Source: Acephala macrosclerotiorum (Eukaryota > Ascomycota > Leotiomycetes > Helotiales > Mollisiaceae). Taken from it: DNA of 64,000 bases. The translations under genes and the position numbers were made by a program. Where the stretch lies: assembly GCA_014904845.1 (NCBI GenBank), contig MU119456.1, positions 1 to 64,000 on the forward strand, given 5' to 3'. This document shows positions 4,075 to 62,894 of this stretch, in pieces (the stretch's first letter is position 1; every line of letters begins with the position of its first letter). The notes under the pieces are model-generated. The model was not told where the DNA came from. It was given only the letters and a program-made list of their open reading frames with translations, and did not search any database.

Positions 4075-5179
4075 TAGGCTGCTCGTGGGAGACCCATGGG
4101 GTGGAGTTTTAAAATTTCTCCCCTACCCACGGGTCCCTTATAAAGCGAAAATATATTAGTCCTCCACCTACGGGTCCTTTATAGGTTTTGTGGGACCCCT
4201 ATAAAAGATATATAAATTATATAAAAATATAAATATATTTATTAAAATTTAATTTTAAAAAAAATTAATAAAATAATAAATATTATAAAATAAATATAAT
4301 TATAATTAAAGTTTTTAAATATAATTTATTATAGTAATATAAAACTAGACTAGTATTATCGTTCCGAATTAGGACTAATTTTAATCACGTGATTAAACTA
4401 AAAATATATTAAATAATTTAATATTTAATATTTAATATTTTTTAAATAAAATTTTATATAATTTATAAATTCGTAAAATAATTTTAAATTTATTATAATA
4501 TTTATTAATTTAATTAATAAAATAAAAAAAATATATAATTTAAATTAAAATTTTAAAATTATTTAAATTTTAAATTTTAAATTAAATCGTATATAAATAG
4601 TTTTTAATTTTTTATTACGATTATTTTTTAATTTATAAATTGATTTTTTTAATTTTTAATTTTTAAAATATATAAATATAAAACTTTTAAAACGATTTAA
4701 TTAAATAATTATTAAATAAATAAATAATTTACGAAAATATTAAAAATAAAAATAAATATATTTAAAATTAAATGTTTAAAAATTTAACGTTTAAAAGTTT
4801 AATATTCGAAAATATAATTCGAAATATATTATAATATATAATATAATAATAAATATATAATTTTAATTTTTATTTATTTAAAATTATTATTATAATTTAA
4901 AAAATACATTTTTATTATTATTATTATTATAACGTTTATTATAATAAAATATTTTTTTAATTTAATTACGTAATTTAACTAGTTTTAATTCGGAACGATA
5001 ATACTATATTTTATGAATATTCTATTTTTAAATGGGGCCCCATAGAGCTCCATGCTGGAGAACTAAAAATAGAACTCCACCCGTGGAGGACTCTTAAAAA
5101 AAAACTCCACCCAGACCCACCCCATGGGGTGGGGTAGAAATGGAGCTCCACACCCCATGGTTTTTTTGCGAGCAGCCTA
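4075..5179. mobile_element. hAT-like DNA transposon remnant (1105 bp)
   Basis: The insert is bounded by inverted termini TAGGCTGCTCG (4075-4085) and CGAGCAGCCTA (5169-5179). Similarity extends inward (CCATGGGGTG blocks near 4094 and 5150). It is flanked by a perfect 8-bp duplication GGACGATC at 4067-4074 and 5180-5187. An 8-bp target site and TAGG-type ends are the mark of the hAT superfamily. There is no transposase frame; the middle is AT-rich with RIP-like composition, so it is a non-autonomous or destroyed copy. It sits in the HET gene and is a main cause of its loss. Confidence 0.85.
4353..5004. mobile_element. nested TA-flanked inverted-repeat element (652 bp)
   Basis: Inside the hAT-like insert, GTATTATCGTTCCGAATTA (4353-4371) is matched in inverse by TAATTCGGAACGATAATAC (4986-5004), with partial similarity further in (ACTA...TTAAT.ACGT). 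Both ends are bordered by TA (4351-4352 and 5005-5006), as for Tc1/mariner/Pogo-type elements and their MITEs. The interior is A/T-converted, with surviving C mostly in CpG, and encodes nothing. It could instead be an internal inverted repeat of the outer element. Confidence 0.65.
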
Positions 5180-52036: not shown

Positions 52037-53019
52037 CGAAGCTACAGCCCAACACCATGCCAATTTGCGTGCACACCTGCGTAATAATAGTATGCGTAAT
52101 AGAAGCGGTCCTCATTGAATGAGGCTATCACGTTTCCACGGTTAATCTACCTGCTGTGCAAGGTTGGTTGAAGATATATGGCAGCAGAATCGGCCTTGAC
52201 AACAAACCACCCAGGGCTTCTCTTTGATCTGTTCTTATATAGTACTTAGCCTTAGAAAAATTTACGGCTAGAGTGCGGCGGTACTTGGAGCCCAGAAATG
52301 AGCAAAGTAATTGAGGGGAAGGAAGAAGGGGAGGTCCGGAGCAGGTGAGGGCTGGCGTCCCAAAACGACCAAAGTAGGTGAGGAGCTATAATATAAAGTT
52401 GCCTAGATGATAGGAGTAAAGGGAGAGGTTCGAGTTGACATGGCTGTGGATTAAGGATAGACAGGACCGCAAGATGAGGGTGGCTGATTGATCGGGGGAA
52501 AGGGGTGCCATCTTGGTCCTCAAAAAGAGAGTCTAAAAGGGGACCGTCAGATGTGAGGCCTTTATTCGCCATATTCAAGAGAGTTTTCCCGATACAACCC
52601 GCAAGTGCAACAATTGGAGGGCTTCATTCCTTCCCCCGCAGGTAACAACAAATACGCCGTTGACTCTGTATCAGAGTGTCTGCTCTTTGGAGGATAGGTA
52701 GACAGTGTTTGACCAGGTTGTTGTTTTGGACCGGATATCGAATCTGTCCAAAATAACCCAAGGACCGGTGTTCATCGTTCGAAGAAGTAAGGAAGTCATG
52801 TCTGCTGCTTCAAACCTAGCCTCTTTGAGGTCGAGAAGCCGGTTGCAGCCTTTCTAAGCGACGTTATTAAGGTAATCGGCGAGTAAAAGCTCAATAATGG
52901 CCTTTTAACCATCAGCTAGGGCTGTGTCCAGCAATGCTAAACTATCGGTATTAATGGTGAAACTTTTCTCCGAAAAGCTTTACCACTGTATCATGCCTGC
53001 CCACGACAACGGCGTCCTA
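52037..53019. other. 3' flank of the STAND gene with ankyrin relics
   Basis: Read on minus, about 52860-53019 continues the ankyrin pattern beyond the stop of the STAND gene in shifted frames: NNRTPLSWAG, then HDTVVKLFGEK, then LLDTALADG, a stop and KAIIELLLAD. This is a degenerate tail of one or two former repeats. At 52252-52572 (minus) an ATG opens a 106-codon frame starting MANKGLTSDG that I do not recognise and do not call. Confidence 0.6.
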
Positions 53020-55717
53020 TTATTGCAGTTCGGCTCCTTTTTCGAATAGCAGTTTGACTATAGCCTCGTGCCCGCTCGCGGCGGCCCACGAGAGCGGCGT
53101 CCGGCCATCTTTATCCTTTGCGTCGACGTCGGCCTTGCCTGTATCGAGTAGCCGCTGGACAATAGCCTCATACCCATACGAGGCGGCCCACAAGAGCAAC
53201 GTCCGGCCATATTCATCCTTCGCGTCGACGTCGACCTTGCCTGAGTCGAGCAGCCGCTGGAATATAGCCTCGTGCCCATACGAGGCGGCCCACCAAAGCA
53301 ACGTCCGGCTATATTCATCCTTCGCGTCGACGTCGACTTTGCCTGAGTCGAGCAGCCGCTGGAATATAGCCTCGTGCCCGTTCCGGACTGCCAACCACAG
53401 CGGCGTCCGGCCATCTTTATCCTTCGCATCGGCATCGACCTTGCCAGCGAGCAGCCGCTCTACGACGGCTTTATGGCCTTTCTCTGCGGCAGAAAGGAGC
53501 ATTTCTCTTCTTATAGTATCCGCCGAACCTACCTTGATTTCTCCCACAAGCAGCTTCTCCACTGCCTCATGTTCGCCACAAATAGCATACGATAGCGGCG
53601 TCCCATTAATTTCATCTTTCAAGTCGACCCGAGCTCTCGCCCTAAGTAACAGCTTAACTACCGCAACATGCCCATTCCAAGCGGCATACGATAGTGGTGT
53701 TCGACGGTATTTATCAACCGAGTCGACTTCAGCTCCTATGCTAAACCTCAGTGGCATCTTCTTCCTCCAGACACTACCACCGCCCCTAATCAAAAGCTCG
53801 ACAATAGTGTCGAAGCCGTTTTCTGAAGCCCAAGATAGTGCAGACCGCTTATATGTACTATCCTTAGAATTTACGTCAACGCCATCCATTTTAAGAAGAT
53901 GTCTCACTGCTGCAGTGAGTCCTAAATAGGAGACAATCATTAGGGAGGTGAATTTCTTGGGAAAATCCGTTTGTGTGCCCGTCCAATAGATCCTAAACCA
54001 AGTCGAGCAACGCTTTGAACTCGCATCACAGATTTTCAGCACCGATTGCATCACCGAATCGACCTTGATCTGTGAGTTACGGAGGTGTGCGGCCCAGTTT
54101 TTGGCAGAATAATCGAGGAAGACGTGATTCTCTGCGTACTTGGACAACCCCTTGTCTCCCCTGAGGGGATGGGTTTCAAGTTCTGAGAAGAGCAGATGCC
54201 AGATACAGATCTCGGCAAGAATATTGTGAGACTCTTGAGGCTGTAATGCGTGTTTCCATTTGAGATTTCTGGAGACACCTTCGGGGGTAGTTGCTTGGTC
54301 ATTCGGAACCAGGAATTCTTTTGCCGTTTGATGAAGCAAATAGATCTTCTCGTCAACAACCGTCACGAAAAGGCCGCAGAGATCTCGTACGTTCTCGCGA
54401 AAGCGCTCTTCTGGTTTAAGGTCAAGGCCAAGGTCGGCATACGACTGGTGACTTGCCCGGTGAGCTAGCGCTGAATTCATCTCTTTTAGAGTCAAAGGCC
54501 GTGCTGCCGCAACGATGATATGTAGTAGTCTCTTGGCCTTTCCGGGATCGTGACTCTTGGATAAAATTCTTTCGTAAGCCTCATTAACGGTTTGGGGGAG
54601 GTGTGTAATGGCGTGGGATATTCCAACTCTGTCGATATCGATATCGTGCTCTATTAGGTCTAGTGTAAGATGAATCCATAGATATGTCCGGTTCGGAACA
54701 CCTATAAGCCCTTGCAATAAAAGATCTTGCTCGTCCTGTTTAAGCCTCCGTTTTGCTCCGATATTCTGAACTCTGTCTTTGATAAAAATATCGATTTCTC
54801 GGGTAATCATTTCCATCTCAACACCGCTCTCGCCACTTAGATGAATGACAGGCGCTTGCGGAATCTCCAGCGGATGGAAGCCCTCTCGGATCTGTCCATA
54901 GGGCCGAGTGGTTAAGAGAACCTTCAAATTAAGCTTCGCTTTAGTACTATACAGTTTGCACAATGCTTCGGCGAGCTGAAACCTTCCATAATCGTCGCAT
55001 TCGTCGAACGCATCGAAAATACAGACGACTTCGCCAGCGTTCTCATCTCCTGCAGCGCTGATAAGGACGTCCCAAAGTTCACCAAATGAGCTGGTGAGGT
55101 TTTCTCTATCTGCTTCGAACTGCTTAAGGATCTTGTCGGAGAAAAGGATATTTTTTTGTTTGAAGAGTTGATGCAAGATACAGCAGAGAGCACCATTCAC
55201 GCTCCTTTGATCCTCGAAATCGTCCTTGAAGAAGAAGTAGCAGGTTGTTCTGGAATCAGTGGTTGGAAGCACGGAGTTAATCAGATGTTTCGCAAGGACT
55301 GACTTTCCGCACCCAGGATCCGCAGACACCCAGAGCATATATGATGATTTGCTCTGTTGCCACTCTTTAAAAGACTTATGAGTTACGAACCATTCACACG
55401 TCCCCGAAATCCTTTCTGGGTTCCTCTCCATCCTCTCTTTATAATCCAAAGTTCTGAGTCTCTGAAGGATTGCACTTTTCCGAGTATATGTCTCGTCGTC
55501 TCCTTGAGATGTTTAGCAAGGAAACCACATGTCATCGATGAGAACGCTCAATCTTACCGGAATTCTGATGAATATTCAGAGTCTGAATGTGAGCCTCAGG
55601 GAATTGGTTGCCACTGCCTGTATTGTTGTTTTGAGTTCCCCCAGGAGCGTTGTATTGAGCCCCAGAGCCGCGGTTGTTAAAGGATGAGCCTTCAAACGAG
55701 GGCCCAGGCTGTTCCAT
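53020..55717 (-). CDS. STAND/NLR-type receptor: sigma amyloid motif - NACHT - ankyrin repeats, 880 aa
   Basis: Exon 1 is 55717-55558, intron 55557-55503 (GTAAGA, GCTAAAC branch, AAG), exon 2 55502-53020; 2643 nt in phase. Residues 13-40 are a sigma (NACHT_sigma) motif: FNNRGSGAQYNAPGGTQ, then NNNTGSGNQF. A linker (LQRLRTLDYKERMERN) and the NACHT domain follow: GTCEWF, Walker A ADPGCGKSVL at 114-123, Walker B VVCIFDAFDEC at 212-222, LLTTRPYG. Residues about 572-880 form about nine ankyrin repeats; the last four are nearly identical (TPLxWAAxxGHEAI). Such proteins sense ligands with the repeats, oligomerise through NACHT and template amyloid folding of the motif. SesA and SesB genes with the same motif lie next door. 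An open frame runs about 40 codons upstream of this ATG, so an extra 5' exon is possible. The C-terminus appears truncated. Confidence 0.9.
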
Positions 55718-57102
55718 CTCGGGGCGTGATCGCGGATTAGATAGGGCAGGGTCGCCGCTTGCTTGCGGTTGCTCGCTTCCCGACGGATAGCTGGTAGTCC
55801 GAGGAGATTAAGATGTTGCGTCTGTGTGTCTCTTCGTTGTCTAACGTACGTTAGATTAATTGAAGAAGTGCCGAGGACAAAGCTAAGATAATTGGAGTTG
55901 CGCCTGACGAATGTGAGCTTGAATGCAGGGCGGGTAGATCCGAGGGTTTTACCAAGCAAACACTCCTCAAGGACTGGTATTTCCGGCGAAATGACGAAAG
56001 CGGAAGGCGATTTATCAAACCTCTTCGTCTTTACCAGGAGAAGGGCAAATGTGCGAGAAAGTGCGACGTGAACCTGTAAGATATTCTTTGGCGCTTATCG
56101 CGAGGCTGAAGAGGCTAGAGGTGGCCAGCTTGGCGTCGTTAATGGAGCTTCGCGAAGCTGTGAGGGTACAAACGAGACTCCCACCGTAATGAGAGAAACA
56201 AAACAAGTACAGCACATAGAGGTTCGTTTGCGAGCCCAGCGGCAGCTTGACACTCTTGTAAGGCACGAAAGCACCTCAGGCGTCAGATTAGGGTGACCCT
56301 TGCAAAGCCAGACACATTCTGCCCCACAGGCGAAGACAAAGTTATTTGAGCGCAGCACGCTCGGCAGGAACAGGTCATGAGGACGGGCAATTGATCTTTG
56401 GCTTGGTTTCTTTCCACTCGTTTCGTACAGGCGGCGGCATATTCTGCTGAAGTTGTGGCGCCGCGGAACCCAATAACAACAAGTGACGTGGTCATCCGCA
56501 ACGGATCCCGAAGCGCTGAGGTTAACAACGACGGAATTTGGCGTACCGGCAGCCTTTCATCTCCGCCAATGGTCGTTATAGGCTGGTCATACGTGGCATA
56601 GCGATTGCCACTAGCGGTTGGTGGTCACGCTTACTCCCTCTCCCTACACAAAAAAAGAGAAAAAGAAAAGCCAATGGCGCATCCTACGCCCAAATCGGTG
56701 CTCGGCGGCGGTCGCGCACCTTGCAGTAGACATCATAGTGATGAATTGTCGAGTTCACCGACTGCTGGGTGTTTTGGCGGGCGATGAGGAGGCTTAGAGT
56801 TGGCAGGGTCCTCGCGCAAGTGGTCTGATCAAGCCTTCCAGTGTAGCAATGCAGCAAACAACATTTTGAGGCGCTAAACCCACCACGCCTTCAAACCCAG
56901 CAAATGAGAATCGAGAATGCCTATGTACGATACTGCAGGATGTTGTCAGCTCCCTCCTCCAGGAGGGAAGGAAACCAGATATCTTATTTTTAAGCACTTT
57001 GAACGGCTTTTTTTAAATTCCTTTTCGAGTCCCATTAGTACATTAGTAGAAATACGCCTTCTTTCACACATCAATATTACTCAACTCGTGTTCCGTACAA
57101 TA
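55718..57102. other. intergenic between divergent receptor and SesA-like genes
   Basis: About 1.4 kb that must hold both promoters. It includes the block conserved with the SesB-like gene (separate entry). No frame resembles a known protein. Just before the SesA start there is a T-rich tract (CGGCTTTTTTTAAATTCC). Confidence 0.5.
55845..55993 (-). promoter_or_regulatory. upstream block of the receptor gene, conserved with the SesB-like gene
   Basis: Shares with 59150-59299 a series of matching stretches in the same order and orientation: (+ strand) GATTAAT.GAAGAA, GAGGACAAAGCTAAGATA, CGAATGTGAGCT, TTACCAAGCAAACACTCCTC and ATTTCCGGCGAAA. It lies about 130-275 bp upstream of the receptor ATG, on the gene side of the divergent intergenic region. 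Confidence 0.7.
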
Positions 57103-57714
57103 ATGACAAACGCCAACGTCACCAGCTTGGTCTCCAGCACGATCGCCATTCTCAAGGCCACCACAAAAAGCTACAATATTGTCAGCGATGATAAGGGTCT
57201 CCGAGACGCCTTCCATGAAGCAGGTCGAGGGCTACTCCTTGTCGAGGAGGCTCTCCAGCCTCTAGCTGGAGACCCTCAAAGCGCCATGAGCTCACTAGAG
57301 GCCTGCAACGCAAAAGCAAAGCTGTCCGAGAGTATATTCAAGGACGTTGCTCAAGCACTGGAGGCCTCGAGGTTCGAGCGTTACAAAGTAGCTGTGAGAC
57401 AAGTGGGCAAGGGAAACATGGTGGAGGTATTGGTAAAGGGGATGATGAATGACGCGTGTGACCTGGTCAAGAACAGCGCGATCGAAGCAGCAATGAAAAC
57501 CCAAATCAAGGGATTACACGATGCGATCGACAAGTTGTCAACGATGGAGCCGTCTGTGCCAAACGAGCAGTTGTGCAACACTTTTTCCAATTATGGCTCT
57601 GGCAGCCAATTCAACGCTCCTAGGGGAACTCAAAACAACAGTACAGGCAGTGGTAACCAATTCCCTGGGGCTAGTTTCAGTGGGCCTGTGCATTTTGGCA
57701 ACAATCCGTCTTGA
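57103..57714 (+). CDS. SesA-like putative cell-death effector with C-terminal sigma motif, 203 aa
   Basis: Single exon; the ATG at 57103 begins the family-like N-terminus (MTNANVTSLVSSTIAIL). Residues 1-150 are all-helical with an amphipathic/hydrophobic start and match the SesA N-terminal domain found on fungal NACHT proteins and on stand-alone effectors; the conserved middle has KGLRDAFHEAGRGLLLVEE. Residues 161-199 are a full sigma motif: NYGSGSQFNAPRGTQNNSTG, then SGNQFPGASFSGPVHFG. By family knowledge, the motif is converted to an amyloid fold by the receptor's own motif, and the helical domain then acts at membranes to kill or alter the cell. It is divergent from the receptor (1.4 kb apart) and convergent with the SesB-like gene (260 bp between stops). 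Intact. Confidence 0.88.
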   Translation: MTNANVTSLVSSTIAILKATTKSYNIVSDDKGLRDAFHEAGRGLLLVEEALQPLAGDPQSAMSSLEACNAKAKLSESIFKDVAQALEASRFERYKVAVRQVGKGNMVEVLVKGMMNDACDLVKNSAIEAAMKTQIKGLHDAIDKLSTMEPSVPNEQLCNTFSNYGSGSQFNAPRGTQNNSTGSGNQFPGASFSGPVHFGNNPS

Positions 57715-57973
57715 GAAGGAGGCTTTTTGTAGATAGCCCCTCATAGTACCATAAAGATAGCTAGGAGCTGAGGACCGGGTTCTCGGCAGCATGTGTTATT
57801 CGTTGCTGTCTGGGCAGTGCAAGCAGGCGTTATTGCGCGTTTGGTACCATGGTTCGAGAGCAGTTACTTCCTCGGCAGCCTTGGGTTCAAAGAAATAAAT
57901 TACGGCAATATAACAATTATATATATCCCTGATTTGTTTCGCAGCCAATTGCTCGACCTCTGCCCAGATATCT

Positions 57974-59143
57974 TCAGACACATGCTGTCGAGAGCCCGCT
58001 AAAATACACGGTCCCATTAAAAGTACCAAGGATTTGGTTGCCACTGCCTGTATTGTTGTTTTGCGTGCCCCCAAGAGCGTTAAATTGGAGTCCAGGGCCG
58101 TAGTTGTTAAAGGAAGAGCTGGCTGGCTTGTCGATCTGCGCTTCTTCCACCGATCGTGTTGGTTGACTGGCGGCTGAATCCCTGATTTGTGATTCCCACC
58201 TGATCAGCTCGCCAAGCAACCTTTTGAATCCATTGTCTTCCGCGGAGCCAAACCTGGTCATGTCTCTATGGTTGGCGTGAATGCTGAAAGAACTGTAACC
58301 TTCAAGGGTTGCTGATTCCTTGGACACGACTTTCCCAACCACAGGCAGAGGCAGTTCTTCCAAGAAGCATGTAACCTCAAGACGCCTGCCGGCTTCTCGC
58401 AGTTCCCGTATCATCGACCAGAACCTGACTTGAATGGACTCTAGGAACTGGTTATCCGTCTCCAAGATCTCTAACAGCAACTTGTTAGTAGACTTGACGA
58501 GACCAAGAGCCGAAGCCGGTATCTTGGCCCAGTTAGCCATCCAGGACCCCTTGTGAGGAGTGCCCATGAATACGATGCCATTAGTGCAATCAAATATGCC
58601 CCGAAGATGAGATTCGGGGTTATTTCGCGAGAGGAGAATGGCCTCCTTGCAGACAAGGCCGCCGAGGCTGTGAGTGACGAAAATGAGGGGACGAGATGAA
58701 GCATCGCAAGAAGCTCTGTCCGTCGTTAAATCGTTCAGAAGGTTCGTAGCATGATCGATTAAGCGATTTGATGATGCACCCGATTTTCGCATTATGTATG
58801 CATCGTAGCCATAAGTGAGGATACGAGCTCTGGTGAGCTTGGGTGGGAGGAGCGTCTTTGGCCAGGGTGTGGATTGCCCGTGGGCGGTCCAGGTGCTGTC
58901 CCGATTGCCGGTCAAACCGTGGACAAAGCAGATGTCAAACGTGGCGTCAGGACAGTCGTGCAACACTTCAACTCCATCGGGGAAGGAGTCGGGTGGAGGG
59001 CCTTCGGAAGATGGCCCAGAGTGCGGTCGTGCATTGGGCAGGGTAGGGTCGCTGCTCGTTCTTTCTGGCCGATCGCCCCTTGGGTTGTATGCAGTCTTTG
59101 GCTGCTTCTTCCCAGGCTTAAAAACCGCTTTGAGTTTCTCCAT
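57974..59143 (-). CDS. SesB-like alpha/beta hydrolase with C-terminal sigma motif, 389 aa
   Basis: Start chosen at the ATG of MEKLKAVFKPGKK (59143). A basic, disordered first 50 residues lead into a lipase-like alpha/beta hydrolase: DICFVHGLTGNRDSTW (oxyanion-hole region, about 69-84), nucleophile elbow THSLGG with Ser159, FMGTPHKGSWMANWA, and a likely catalytic His in the IHANHRDM stretch (289-292). Residues about 345-382 are the sigma motif: FNNYGPGLQFNALGGTQ, NNNTGSGNQ, FNGTVYFSG. The last turn is less regular than in the SesA-like protein (GNQILG in place of GNQFPG). SesB proteins are the enzyme effector of sigma clusters; the natural substrate is not known. It shares upstream DNA with the receptor. 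Intact, single exon. Confidence 0.88.
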   Translation of the reverse strand: MEKLKAVFKPGKKQPKTAYNPRGDRPERTSSDPTLPNARPHSGPSSEGPPPDSFPDGVEVLHDCPDATFDICFVHGLTGNRDSTWTAHGQSTPWPKTLLPPKLTRARILTYGYDAYIMRKSGASSNRLIDHATNLLNDLTTDRASCDASSRPLIFVTHSLGGLVCKEAILLSRNNPESHLRGIFDCTNGIVFMGTPHKGSWMANWAKIPASALGLVKSTNKLLLEILETDNQFLESIQVRFWSMIRELREAGRRLEVTCFLEELPLPVVGKVVSKESATLEGYSSFSIHANHRDMTRFGSAEDNGFKRLLGELIRWESQIRDSAASQPTRSVEEAQIDKPASSSFNNYGPGLQFNALGGTQNNNTGSGNQILGTFNGTVYFSGLSTACV

Positions 59144-59149
59144 CGTTCG

Positions 59150-59299
59150 GGGCACGTTGGATCAATCCGAAGAATGGTTGAGGTCGAAGCGTAGATATGT
59201 TAGCTATGCCTAACGAATGTGAGCTCAACCACAGGCTAGCAAGACCAAGGAGCCTTACCAAGAAAGCACTCCTCGCAAGGCCAGAATTTCCGGCGAAAC
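59150..59299 (-). promoter_or_regulatory. upstream block of the SesB-like gene, conserved with the receptor gene
   Basis: Directly upstream of the hydrolase ATG. (+ strand) GATCAATCCGAAGAA, GAGGTCGAAGCGTAGATA, CGAATGTGAGCT, TTACCAAGAAAGCACTCCTC and ATTTCCGGCGAAA match 55845-55993 in order. No equivalent was seen upstream of the SesA-like gene. Confidence 0.7.
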
Positions 59300-60390: not shown

Positions 60391-62894
60391 TTAATTTTCT
60401 ACTTTCCAAATTCTAATTGCCCCATCAACACTACCAGATGCGAGTTGACGCCCGTCAATCGAGAAAGCAACGCACCAAACTTCAAATTCACGGCCTTTAA
60501 GTTCTTGTATACACTTGAATTTATTATGTTCGTTTGCCCAAATTCGAATTGTTGAATCGCTGCTACTAGACGCGAGTTGGCGCCCATCAGGCGAATAAGC
60601 AATTGACCAAATAGTCATTTGGTGGCCTATAAGCTCTTGTACTTGCTCAAACCTGCCTTCTTTATTTTCCCAAATTCGAATTGTCCTGTCGCCGCTACCG
60701 GACGCAAGCTGGTGCCCATCAGGCGAAAAGGCGACTGACCAGATTCGAACTTTATGGCCTTTAAGCTTTTGCACTTCCTCGAACCTGCCTTGTCTAGCCG
60801 CCCAGATCCGAATCGTTTTATCACCGCTACCGGACGCAAGCTGGTGCCCGTCAGGCGAAAACGCGAGCGACGAGACCTTACCCTTGTGGCCCTTGAGCTC
60901 TTGTACCTGCTCGAATTTGCCCTGCCTATCCGCCCAGATCAGGATTGTCTTGTCCTCAGCACCGGAAGCAAGCGTGCGCCCATCGGGTGAAAACGCGAAT
61001 GACCAGATTATGCCTTTGTGACCCTTAAGCGCTTGCACCTGCTCAAACTTGCCCTGCTTGGCACTGCTTATCAATATTAAGTTGTCGTAACTATATGCGA
61101 GCTGGTGCCCATCAGGCGAGAAAGCGATTGCGAAGACTTTGCTTCCAGAAAGCTTGATCCCTTGTACCTGCTCGAGCCTGCCTTGCTTATCCGCCCAAAT
61201 CCGAACCGTGTTGCCGTAGCTGCCAGACGCGAGCTGGCGCCCATCAGGTGAAAACGCAACTGAAAGGACCTCGTGAGTATGGCTGAGCTCTTGGGAGAAT
61301 GTAAATGTCTGTGGCTTTTGTGCGATCACATTACTCGAGGAAGGCTTATTTCCGAGGTCGGTCGAGGAAGTTCGCGTTCCTGCCGCTGCTGCCGCAGTTG
61401 TAGAACTAGAATTTTTCGAGTTCGTATTACTTATTCTTGAAAATGGGGTGGTGTTTTGTCGTACGGAAGGGCCAGTCTCATCAAATGAGACATTATACTG
61501 AATGGGGAATGTAGCAAATTCTTCATCCAAAGTACTCCATTGTGCGGAGGGGGAAACGGAAGTCGATGTTATACCGGGCTTGTAGCTGGGACTTTTTTTG
61601 GGGGAATGTTAATCTCCCACCCTATTGATACAATCAAGGAACGTACCTTGGCGTTGAACGTTGTTTCCCCTCAATATCTGCTTTTGATAATAGGTCAAGA
61701 TCCTCTTGACTGATGGTCGCTGGCGAGGAGGTCGTCATTGAGATTGGTGGTCCTGTAGAAGGTAGCTCTAGCGATTTAGGCAAGATCGGCTGCGGAGCAA
61801 GTTTATTCTCCTTCACCCAAGCCTGCTCATCACAATTCTGGTTGGTAAAGACTTGAGCCAGAACCTCAAGCATCTCGACTCCAGTAGTAAAAGGGTCTTT
61901 ACATCCAGGACGAAGTCTAGGCTCTAGATGCGTGAAAGCTAGGCCTTTTACTCCATTCAGGATGTAGGTCATTGTGGTGTCCTCATCCGCCTCCCAATCG
62001 TCGGCCGTGACCCTAGCCCTCATCCCCAAGAGCCAGTGTTCAAAATGGGGGGTGTTCAGATCCTCCGGCTCGCCAGTAAAGACTGGCGGGTCTGGAATCT
62101 CAGCCATCGACTTCTTCGAAGATTCAGAAGAGGAATCCCTGCTCTTTGATCGCCGTGATGGGGTGCTCCCTTGTTGCTTTATAGATCCCCGTTCACTGCC
62201 TCTAGACTCATCAAGGTCTTCCAAAAATGGGTCGCACACCGTCTCAGCATAACTTGTGAGGTTATCAAGGTATCTCTCTAACATAAATCCCGCACTCCGC
62301 TGATTTGGATCTCGAGGCAATTGCTCCTGTAAACGAGCGATCTCAGCCAGAATTTGGGTTGTATCTATTTTGATCGCAGAGGTATCGCAGAGTAGTTCCT
62401 GGGTGTCGGCTTTAATCTCTCTAGTCAAGTTTCTGCCGCCGAGATTAGCGAAGCTCCACCACGAGGCTAAGGAACTCTAACAAAGTCACCATATCCAACG
62501 CGATCTCAAGAGCAGATCGGTGTGCCTCCAGACTTGATTGCAACTTTAATACATCGCTCTTTCCCGAAGCAACCCACTTCATAGCCTTCATTCCCTTGCC
62601 GCCTTCATGTTTCTTGAGCGTTTGTTCAATTTCCACAACAACTCCGGTACAATTGGCGATTATTCCAGAGATTTGTTTCTGTAGGGTCTGCGGGATGGAC
62701 TCGTTGGCAGAGCCGTTGAGATCGTCTGCAAGTAGCTCAAGGACAATGCTCAGAGATTGTAGTTCTCTTGAGACGGCATCGAGGTCGCTCCGAGCTGCGC
62801 GGACATCCTTCACGAAGCCAATTACGGCGAGGGAGGTGCGAGTAATGGTTGATGCTAGGCCAACGCAAGTCGCTGTGATTGATAGAGGATCCAT
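60391..62894 (-). CDS. Helo-like N-terminal domain - Gag-like domain - WD40 repeat protein, 797 aa
   Basis: Exons 62894-62482, 62432-61647 and 61585-60391 total 2394 nt in phase. Intron 1 (GTTAGA, GCTAAT, CAG) joins the family-typical VTL|NLTREIKADT; intron 2 is GTACGT...CAG. Residues 1-140 match the Helo-like fungal N-terminal domain of STAND proteins (MDPLSITATCVGLAS, DLDAVSRELQSLS). A coiled coil (ADTQELLCDTSAIKIDTTQI) and a Ser/Arg-rich linker follow. Residues about 250-345 resemble Ty3/gypsy-type Gag: PPVFTGEP, FEHWLLGMRARV, TYILNGVKGLAFTHLEPRLR, PFTTGVEMLEVLAQVFTNQN. Residues about 500-797 are seven WD40 repeats (VAFSPDGxQLASGSxDxTIRIW). There is no NTPase between effector and sensor parts, unlike normal STAND proteins. 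It may be a non-self sensor, its neighbours being the sigma cluster. No lesion seen. Confidence 0.82.

Follow-up and report, generated by a model that had tools for sequence, protein, structure and literature searches.

A ses-type sigma-motif cluster in Acephala macrosclerotiorum and a DNA trace of how its receptor and hydrolase may have come to share a motif

The first 64,000 nucleotides of contig MU119456.1 (C255, 1-64000) of the Acephala macrosclerotiorum assembly GCA_014904845.1 (69.66 Mb, 778 contigs), referred to here as the window, hold three neighbouring genes inside 53020-59143: a NACHT-ankyrin receptor, a SesA-like protein and a SesB-like alpha/beta hydrolase (Table 1). All three proteins carry the same sigma motif, which is N-terminal on the receptor and C-terminal on the SesA-like protein and the hydrolase. 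An initial annotation of this DNA had proposed one sensor and two different effectors with a common sigma motif, and Pfam profiles bear out that arrangement. Gene content, motif positions and the 5' intron of the receptor agree with the published ses locus; the locus is therefore read, with good confidence, as a complete ses-type (sigma) amyloid-signalling cluster, already known in kind. The domains, the motif, the linkage and the nucleoside triphosphatase (NTPase) motifs of the cluster are established here. The route by which receptors and their effectors acquired a shared amyloid motif was a question left open in 2012 (Daskalov 2012, PMC3321046), and what is new at this locus is a DNA trace that may show this route for the receptor and the hydrolase.

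Table 1. Features of the ses-type cluster, by position in the window
Feature	Position	Strand	Remarks
Receptor gene	55717-53020	-	880 aa, one predicted 55-nt intron
Receptor exon 2	53020..55502	-	NPHP3_N/NACHT NTPase, GPIID winged helix, ankyrin repeats, stop codon
Ankyrin units	53059..53459	-	four similar units, 102 bp each, 85% matches; receptor C-terminal end
Predicted receptor intron	55503..55557	-	55 nt, GTAAGA...CTCAAG, between motif and NACHT part
Receptor exon 1	55558..55717	-	from first in-frame ATG (55717); holds sigma motif
Receptor sigma block	55597..55689	-	78/93 nt identical to hydrolase 58027-58119; PF17106 gives 55583-55687
Receptor leader	55688..55998	-	homologous to hydrolase gene 5' end; 2-nt overlap with sigma block
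SesA-like effector	57103-57714	+	203 aa; SesA 3.1e-30 at residues 10-121
SesA-like sigma motif	57580..57699	+	71.8 bits (assembly profile search)
SesB-like alpha/beta hydrolase	57974..59143	-	389 aa; HSLGG with S159; H292
Hydrolase sigma motif	57998..58117	-	60.4 bits (assembly profile search)
Hydrolase 5' flank and first 48 codons	59000..59305	-	homologous to receptor leader

The motif was scored with the Pfam profile NACHT_sigma (PF17106, cut-off 27.6 bits), which matches the SesA-like protein at 69.5 bits (E 2.7e-19), receptor exon 1 at 57.5 bits (E 1.5e-15) and the hydrolase at 56.1 bits (E 4e-15). The motif shared by three genes is thus confirmed at the place where the initial annotation had put it, and the plus-strand protein likewise proved to match SesA, as had been expected of it. 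Assembly-wide, matches up to E 1 number three and fall in these same genes, within 55583-58117, which makes the cluster a self-contained example, the sigma motifs found in the assembly all lying inside 2.5 kb. One of the 14 control genomes (E. coli) gave a match, under the cut-off. A 29-nt motif core derived from all three copies (three positions left free, at most 3 mismatches allowed) finds 3 matches in the window against a mean of 0.00 in 100 shuffles. The claimed similarity of motif DNA between receptor and hydrolase is also real (Table 1); identity is 75/87 columns between receptor and SesA and 90/117 between hydrolase and SesA.

The receptor's sigma motif lies on a separate first exon, a correction to the gene layout of the initial annotation. 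The predicted intron has GT and AG ends and its removal yields a single protein in which the motif begins at about residue 11, counting from the first ATG. Pfam finds NPHP3_N (1.4e-40), GPIID winged helix (2.8e-8) and Ank_2 (5.9e-54), and the NTPase motifs are present as Walker A (P-loop) GCGKS, FDAFDE and TTRP; NCBIfam returned mostly ankyrin-protein models for the receptor, none near its cut-off. The four 102-bp ankyrin units recall the repeat arrays of high internal similarity that a 2022 survey describes in about one sixth of fungal receptors. Past the receptor stop, at about 52820-53019 on the minus strand, one or two decayed ankyrin-like repeats with stops can be seen by eye, and the array may once have been longer.

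The hydrolase is called SesB-like because its two best paralogues, on contigs C66 and C261, directly precede NACHT-ankyrin reading frames and are the hydrolase parts of NACHT receptors. The serine of its HSLGG motif is conserved in nine of ten aligned SesB copies, the window's own included, with the tenth copy probably misaligned, and His292 is found in all eight copies with coverage. NCBIfam gave nothing for either effector, and a look-up of solved structures returned no entry at E<=1 for the hydrolase and one chance-level entry (E 1.8) for the SesA-like protein. By analogy with their relatives, the SesA-like protein would act on membranes and the hydrolase would act as a lipase.

The published ses locus of Nectria haematococca consists of sesA, sesB and het-eN (Graziani 2004, PMC516043; Daskalov 2012, PMC3321046), and it resembles the present cluster in having the same three proteins, the motif at the same ends, a NACHT-ankyrin receptor and an intron in the 5' part of the receptor gene. 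SesA measures 210 in Nectria and 203 here, SesB 386 codons and 389, and SesA and SesB lie on opposite strands in both. The sigma motif was reported in all three Nectria proteins, an overlooked 5' intron of het-eN included, and prion-like templating was proposed; the sigma cytoplasmic element is documented for Nectria ses only. The same work defined submotifs A and B, which occur in the order AAA, ABA or ABB (Daskalov 2012, PMC3321046). By that definition all three proteins here have the order A-B-A, with GSGAQYN, GGTQN and GSGNQF in the receptor and RGTQN as the middle submotif of the SesA-like protein.

Beyond the motif itself, the alignments indicate common descent for the receptor leader and the 5' part of the hydrolase gene. 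At about 311 bp, the leader corresponds to some 160 bp of upstream DNA followed by about 48 former codons of the hydrolase. The upstream block was recovered by blastn (E 3e-18, 124/181 columns), and local alignment extends it to receptor 55998-55688 against hydrolase 59305-59000 with a score of 60; the highest score among 100 shuffles was 19, and among 116 control stretches taken from window 1-52000 it was 17. Over the leader 203/287 sites are identical and 84/287 (29%) differ, with an identity of 113/158 upstream of the hydrolase ATG and 90/129 in the former coding part. In an assembly DNA search with the receptor 5' region, the leader matched at the receptor and hydrolase places only, and the region upstream of SesA is without the leader, its scores of 11 and 15 lying below the shuffle maximum of 19. 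The leader seems to be former coding sequence, since the in-frame peptide before the receptor ATG resembles the hydrolase N-terminus (score 62, equalled by 0/2000 shuffles). Across the SesB-coding part, alignment to the receptor requires 9 indels, 8 of which have lengths not divisible by 3, and the hydrolase ATG corresponds to ACG in the receptor. Furthermore, the related upstream blocks suggest that the receptor and the hydrolase are co-regulated.

In the receptor the leader and motif blocks have 2 nt in common; in the hydrolase gene 880 nt separate them. Compared with that gene, the front of the receptor is short of 294 codons, in frame, from codon 48 to codon 342: the receptor reads GPSFEG-SSFNN, and in the hydrolase GPSSEG occupies codons 43-48 and SSFNN begins at codon 343. 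Of the final 20 nt of the leader, 16 are matched in hydrolase codons 42-48, and the sigma block starts there in frame; in that 71-nt stretch the 16/20 level was reached by 0/20000 random window 20-mers. Global alignment allowing long gaps at a low extension cost spread the final leader bases across the hydrolase gene, and local alignments and the adjacency count were relied on instead. In the motif core of receptor and hydrolase (31 codons), 6.5/21.2 synonymous sites differ (31%; synonymous divergence, dS, 0.395; nonsynonymous divergence, dN, 0.163), close to the 29% of the leader, so that one event of one age explains both, with the proviso that the motif sample is small.

Nectria ses also contains repeats, numbered 1-4, of 290, 79, 32 and 93 bp in inverted orientation, whereas the leader and motif repeats of the present cluster are direct. 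The motif repeat measures 93 bp here too, and the 290 bp of the first Nectria repeat is close to the length of the leader; judging from these lengths, the Nectria repeats would be the same feature as the leader and motif described here. If the Nectria receptor and hydrolase are oppositely directed, leader and motif would appear there as inverted repeats. F. graminearum lacks repeats 1-3 and has repeat 4 (Graziani 2004, PMC516043), and if the feature is the same, the leader trace would not be kept in every ses locus. The main text of Daskalov 2012 (PMC3321046) mentions no inverted repeat, leader, promoter or duplication. The 2022 survey places a relative majority of receptor sigma motifs at positions 50-99, which is compatible with a leader ahead of the motif. 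No earlier report of leader homology between receptor and hydrolase was found among the listed results of literature searches, which took in a minority of subscription papers.

The favoured reading of these data, to which a probability of roughly 55% is given, is that the receptor was made from its own effector gene. The 5' region of a SesB-sigma gene would have been duplicated and one copy would have lost 294 hydrolase codons in frame, by which promoter, leader and sigma motif would have been left joined to a NACHT-ankyrin body as its front end, so that a single event would have produced both the matching of the motifs and the shared regulation. The former-coding leader peptide, the out-of-frame indels and the ACG in place of ATG favour a SesB copy that lost its enzyme part. 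A number of results weigh against this origin, or against the cluster as described. The direction of the event is not proven, as the same picture would result if the receptor leader had been copied and a hydrolase had then entered the copy. The N-terminus of the hydrolase is not significantly like that of the C66 paralogue (787/2000 shuffles as good), and against C261 1845/2000 shuffles were as good; the C66 and C261 N-termini match each other (0/2000 as good). The nearest relatives are not resolved in trees of 15 NACHT and 10 SesB copies. These trees drew on 17 loci out of 98 listed NACHT/ankyrin matches and 75 listed SesB matches; 14/17 loci supplied a NACHT row and 9/17 a SesB row, the window's own row was added to each set, and none was dropped for coverage. 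The receptor has an incomplete third sigma repeat, PF17106 covering model positions 2-36 of 42 there and reaching 42 in the other two proteins. The initial annotation had also looked to a Ses_B profile for the hydrolase, and this part did not hold: no Pfam family so named matches it at E<=1, and the best hydrolase model, DUF676, falls just below its cut-off (20.0 bits, 5.3e-4, cut-off 20.3). The guessed catalytic acid, E276, is common to 2/8 copies with coverage, and the full catalytic triad is therefore not established. AlphaFold run without alignments gave unusable models for both effectors (mean predicted local distance difference test scores 44.2 and 32.0), that of the SesA-like protein being helical at low confidence.

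Two sequences alone cannot polarise the event, and this, together with the absence of a signal between the C66 N-terminus and the SesB leader, gives some room to the view that this is a ses locus in which the leader likeness stems from gene conversion or from a hydrolase having been inserted after the receptor leader was duplicated. That course of events is nonetheless judged unlikely, as a peptide in the frame of the SesB N-terminus is kept upstream of the receptor's first in-frame ATG, the indels are those expected of coding sequence turned leader, and conversion would leave unexplained that the two blocks meet at the very point where the 294 codons are missing. Fission, in which an all-in-one SesB-sigma-NACHT-ankyrin receptor split into two genes and SesA joined them afterwards, is possible without being probable. 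Genes of SesB-NACHT-ankyrin type exist at C66 and C261 in the same genome. With the window's own genes set aside, they take the top two ranks among matches to the hydrolase and ranks one and three among matches to the NACHT part. By eye, both seem to have an intron just before NACHT, like the window receptor, and C355, C52, C15, C141 and C185 read through at that site, although no position could be assigned to the introns at C34, C220, C60 and C165, and stops interrupt C13. The SesB-NACHT linker of C66 ends in NTGSG.VIG...G.V.IS, like the second half of the hydrolase motif (score 43, 4/1000 shuffles as high), but this similarity was chosen after looking and was one of three comparisons, the others giving 554 and 374 of 1000. 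Moreover, the nearest SesB copies by identity are at C241 (45.7%) and C67 (43.3%) and not at C66 (41.3%) or C261 (40.2%), with tree support of 27-34, and a NACHT remnant after the hydrolase motif was not found (score 11.5 against a maximum of 15 in 100 shuffles). Fission was tried as an explanation and set aside; the trees lack the resolution to show whether the SesB and the NACHT found here are each sister to one half of the same receptor. Daskalov 2012 (PMC3321046) left splitting versus fusion undecided and noted difficulties for simple splitting.

That the cluster is a relic or non-functional, with the motif held in common but no signalling and a truncated receptor, is very improbable. The decayed ankyrin-like sequence past the receptor stop would fit such a view, but all three reading frames are open, the P-loop and FDAFDE are present in the receptor, as are the serine and histidine of the hydrolase, and in the motif (31 codons) dN (0.16-0.21) is lower than dS (0.40-0.78) for all three pairs.

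A common 5' flank, leader and motif from which the enzyme part alone is absent makes the origin of the receptor from its effector gene a definite proposal that can be put to the test wherever a ses locus has been sequenced. On this proposal, receptor and hydrolase, and not SesA, should be co-regulated through the related upstream element. If the scenario is true, receptor and hydrolase gained the same motif and related promoters in one step, and the leaders of sigma receptors elsewhere should bear the same trace.

By analogy with NWD2/HET-S and ses precedents, a ligand would bind the ankyrin array of the receptor, upon which the NACHT NTPase would oligomerise and bring the N-terminal sigma segments together to nucleate a cross-beta fold. 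This fold would then template the sigma segments at the C-termini of two proteins, the helical SesA-like one and the SesB-like hydrolase, and the membrane-acting and lipase-type effectors so switched on would lead to cell death or a changed cell state. Amyloid formation and cross-seeding of the three motifs are likewise presumed from relatives. In NWD2/HET-S of Podospora anserina the genes are also neighbours, with the motif N-terminal on the receptor and C-terminal on the effector, which is reported to be templated by the prion fold; that system differs in its motif family (HET-s repeats), in its HeLo effector domain and in having one effector. The PP-motif clusters (PNT1/HELLP/SBP, Chaetomium globosum) are alike in that a single receptor controls two distinct effectors, and differ in their motif; a PP-like pattern had zero matches in the window and in the loci examined by then. 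Simultaneous control of two effectors is described in a 2017 review. The all-in-one SesB-NACHT-ankyrin receptors at C66 and C261, an architecture that is published, combine the same hydrolase, NTPase and repeat classes in one protein, but with the effector in cis and with NACHT_sigma unmatched.

Beside the cluster, a minus-strand frame at 62445-62948 matches PF17111 (PigL_N, 1.8e-8) and weakly SesA (0.019). It is followed on the same strand by a WD40 frame at 60391-61608 that has seven repeats, its units being 132 bp long; nothing between the two was seen to match NACHT, and the pair is possibly a second effector or a receptor remnant. The frame between them (61634-62476, minus strand) contains a stretch that resembles a retroelement gag protein by eye, with nothing significant in Pfam. 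At the C66 locus (L033, minus strand), the half-sigma-like linker end lies at about 4180-4280 of the reverse complement and is undetected by PF17106. On C67 (locus L040), a SesB-like gene at 135811-136807 on the plus strand faces a NACHT receptor at 138251-140113 on the minus strand, and both carry a Gly/Asn-rich stretch visible by eye, SGGGNMTVGSSMNF and SGGGTLLAGTNLN, which might be a different shared motif.

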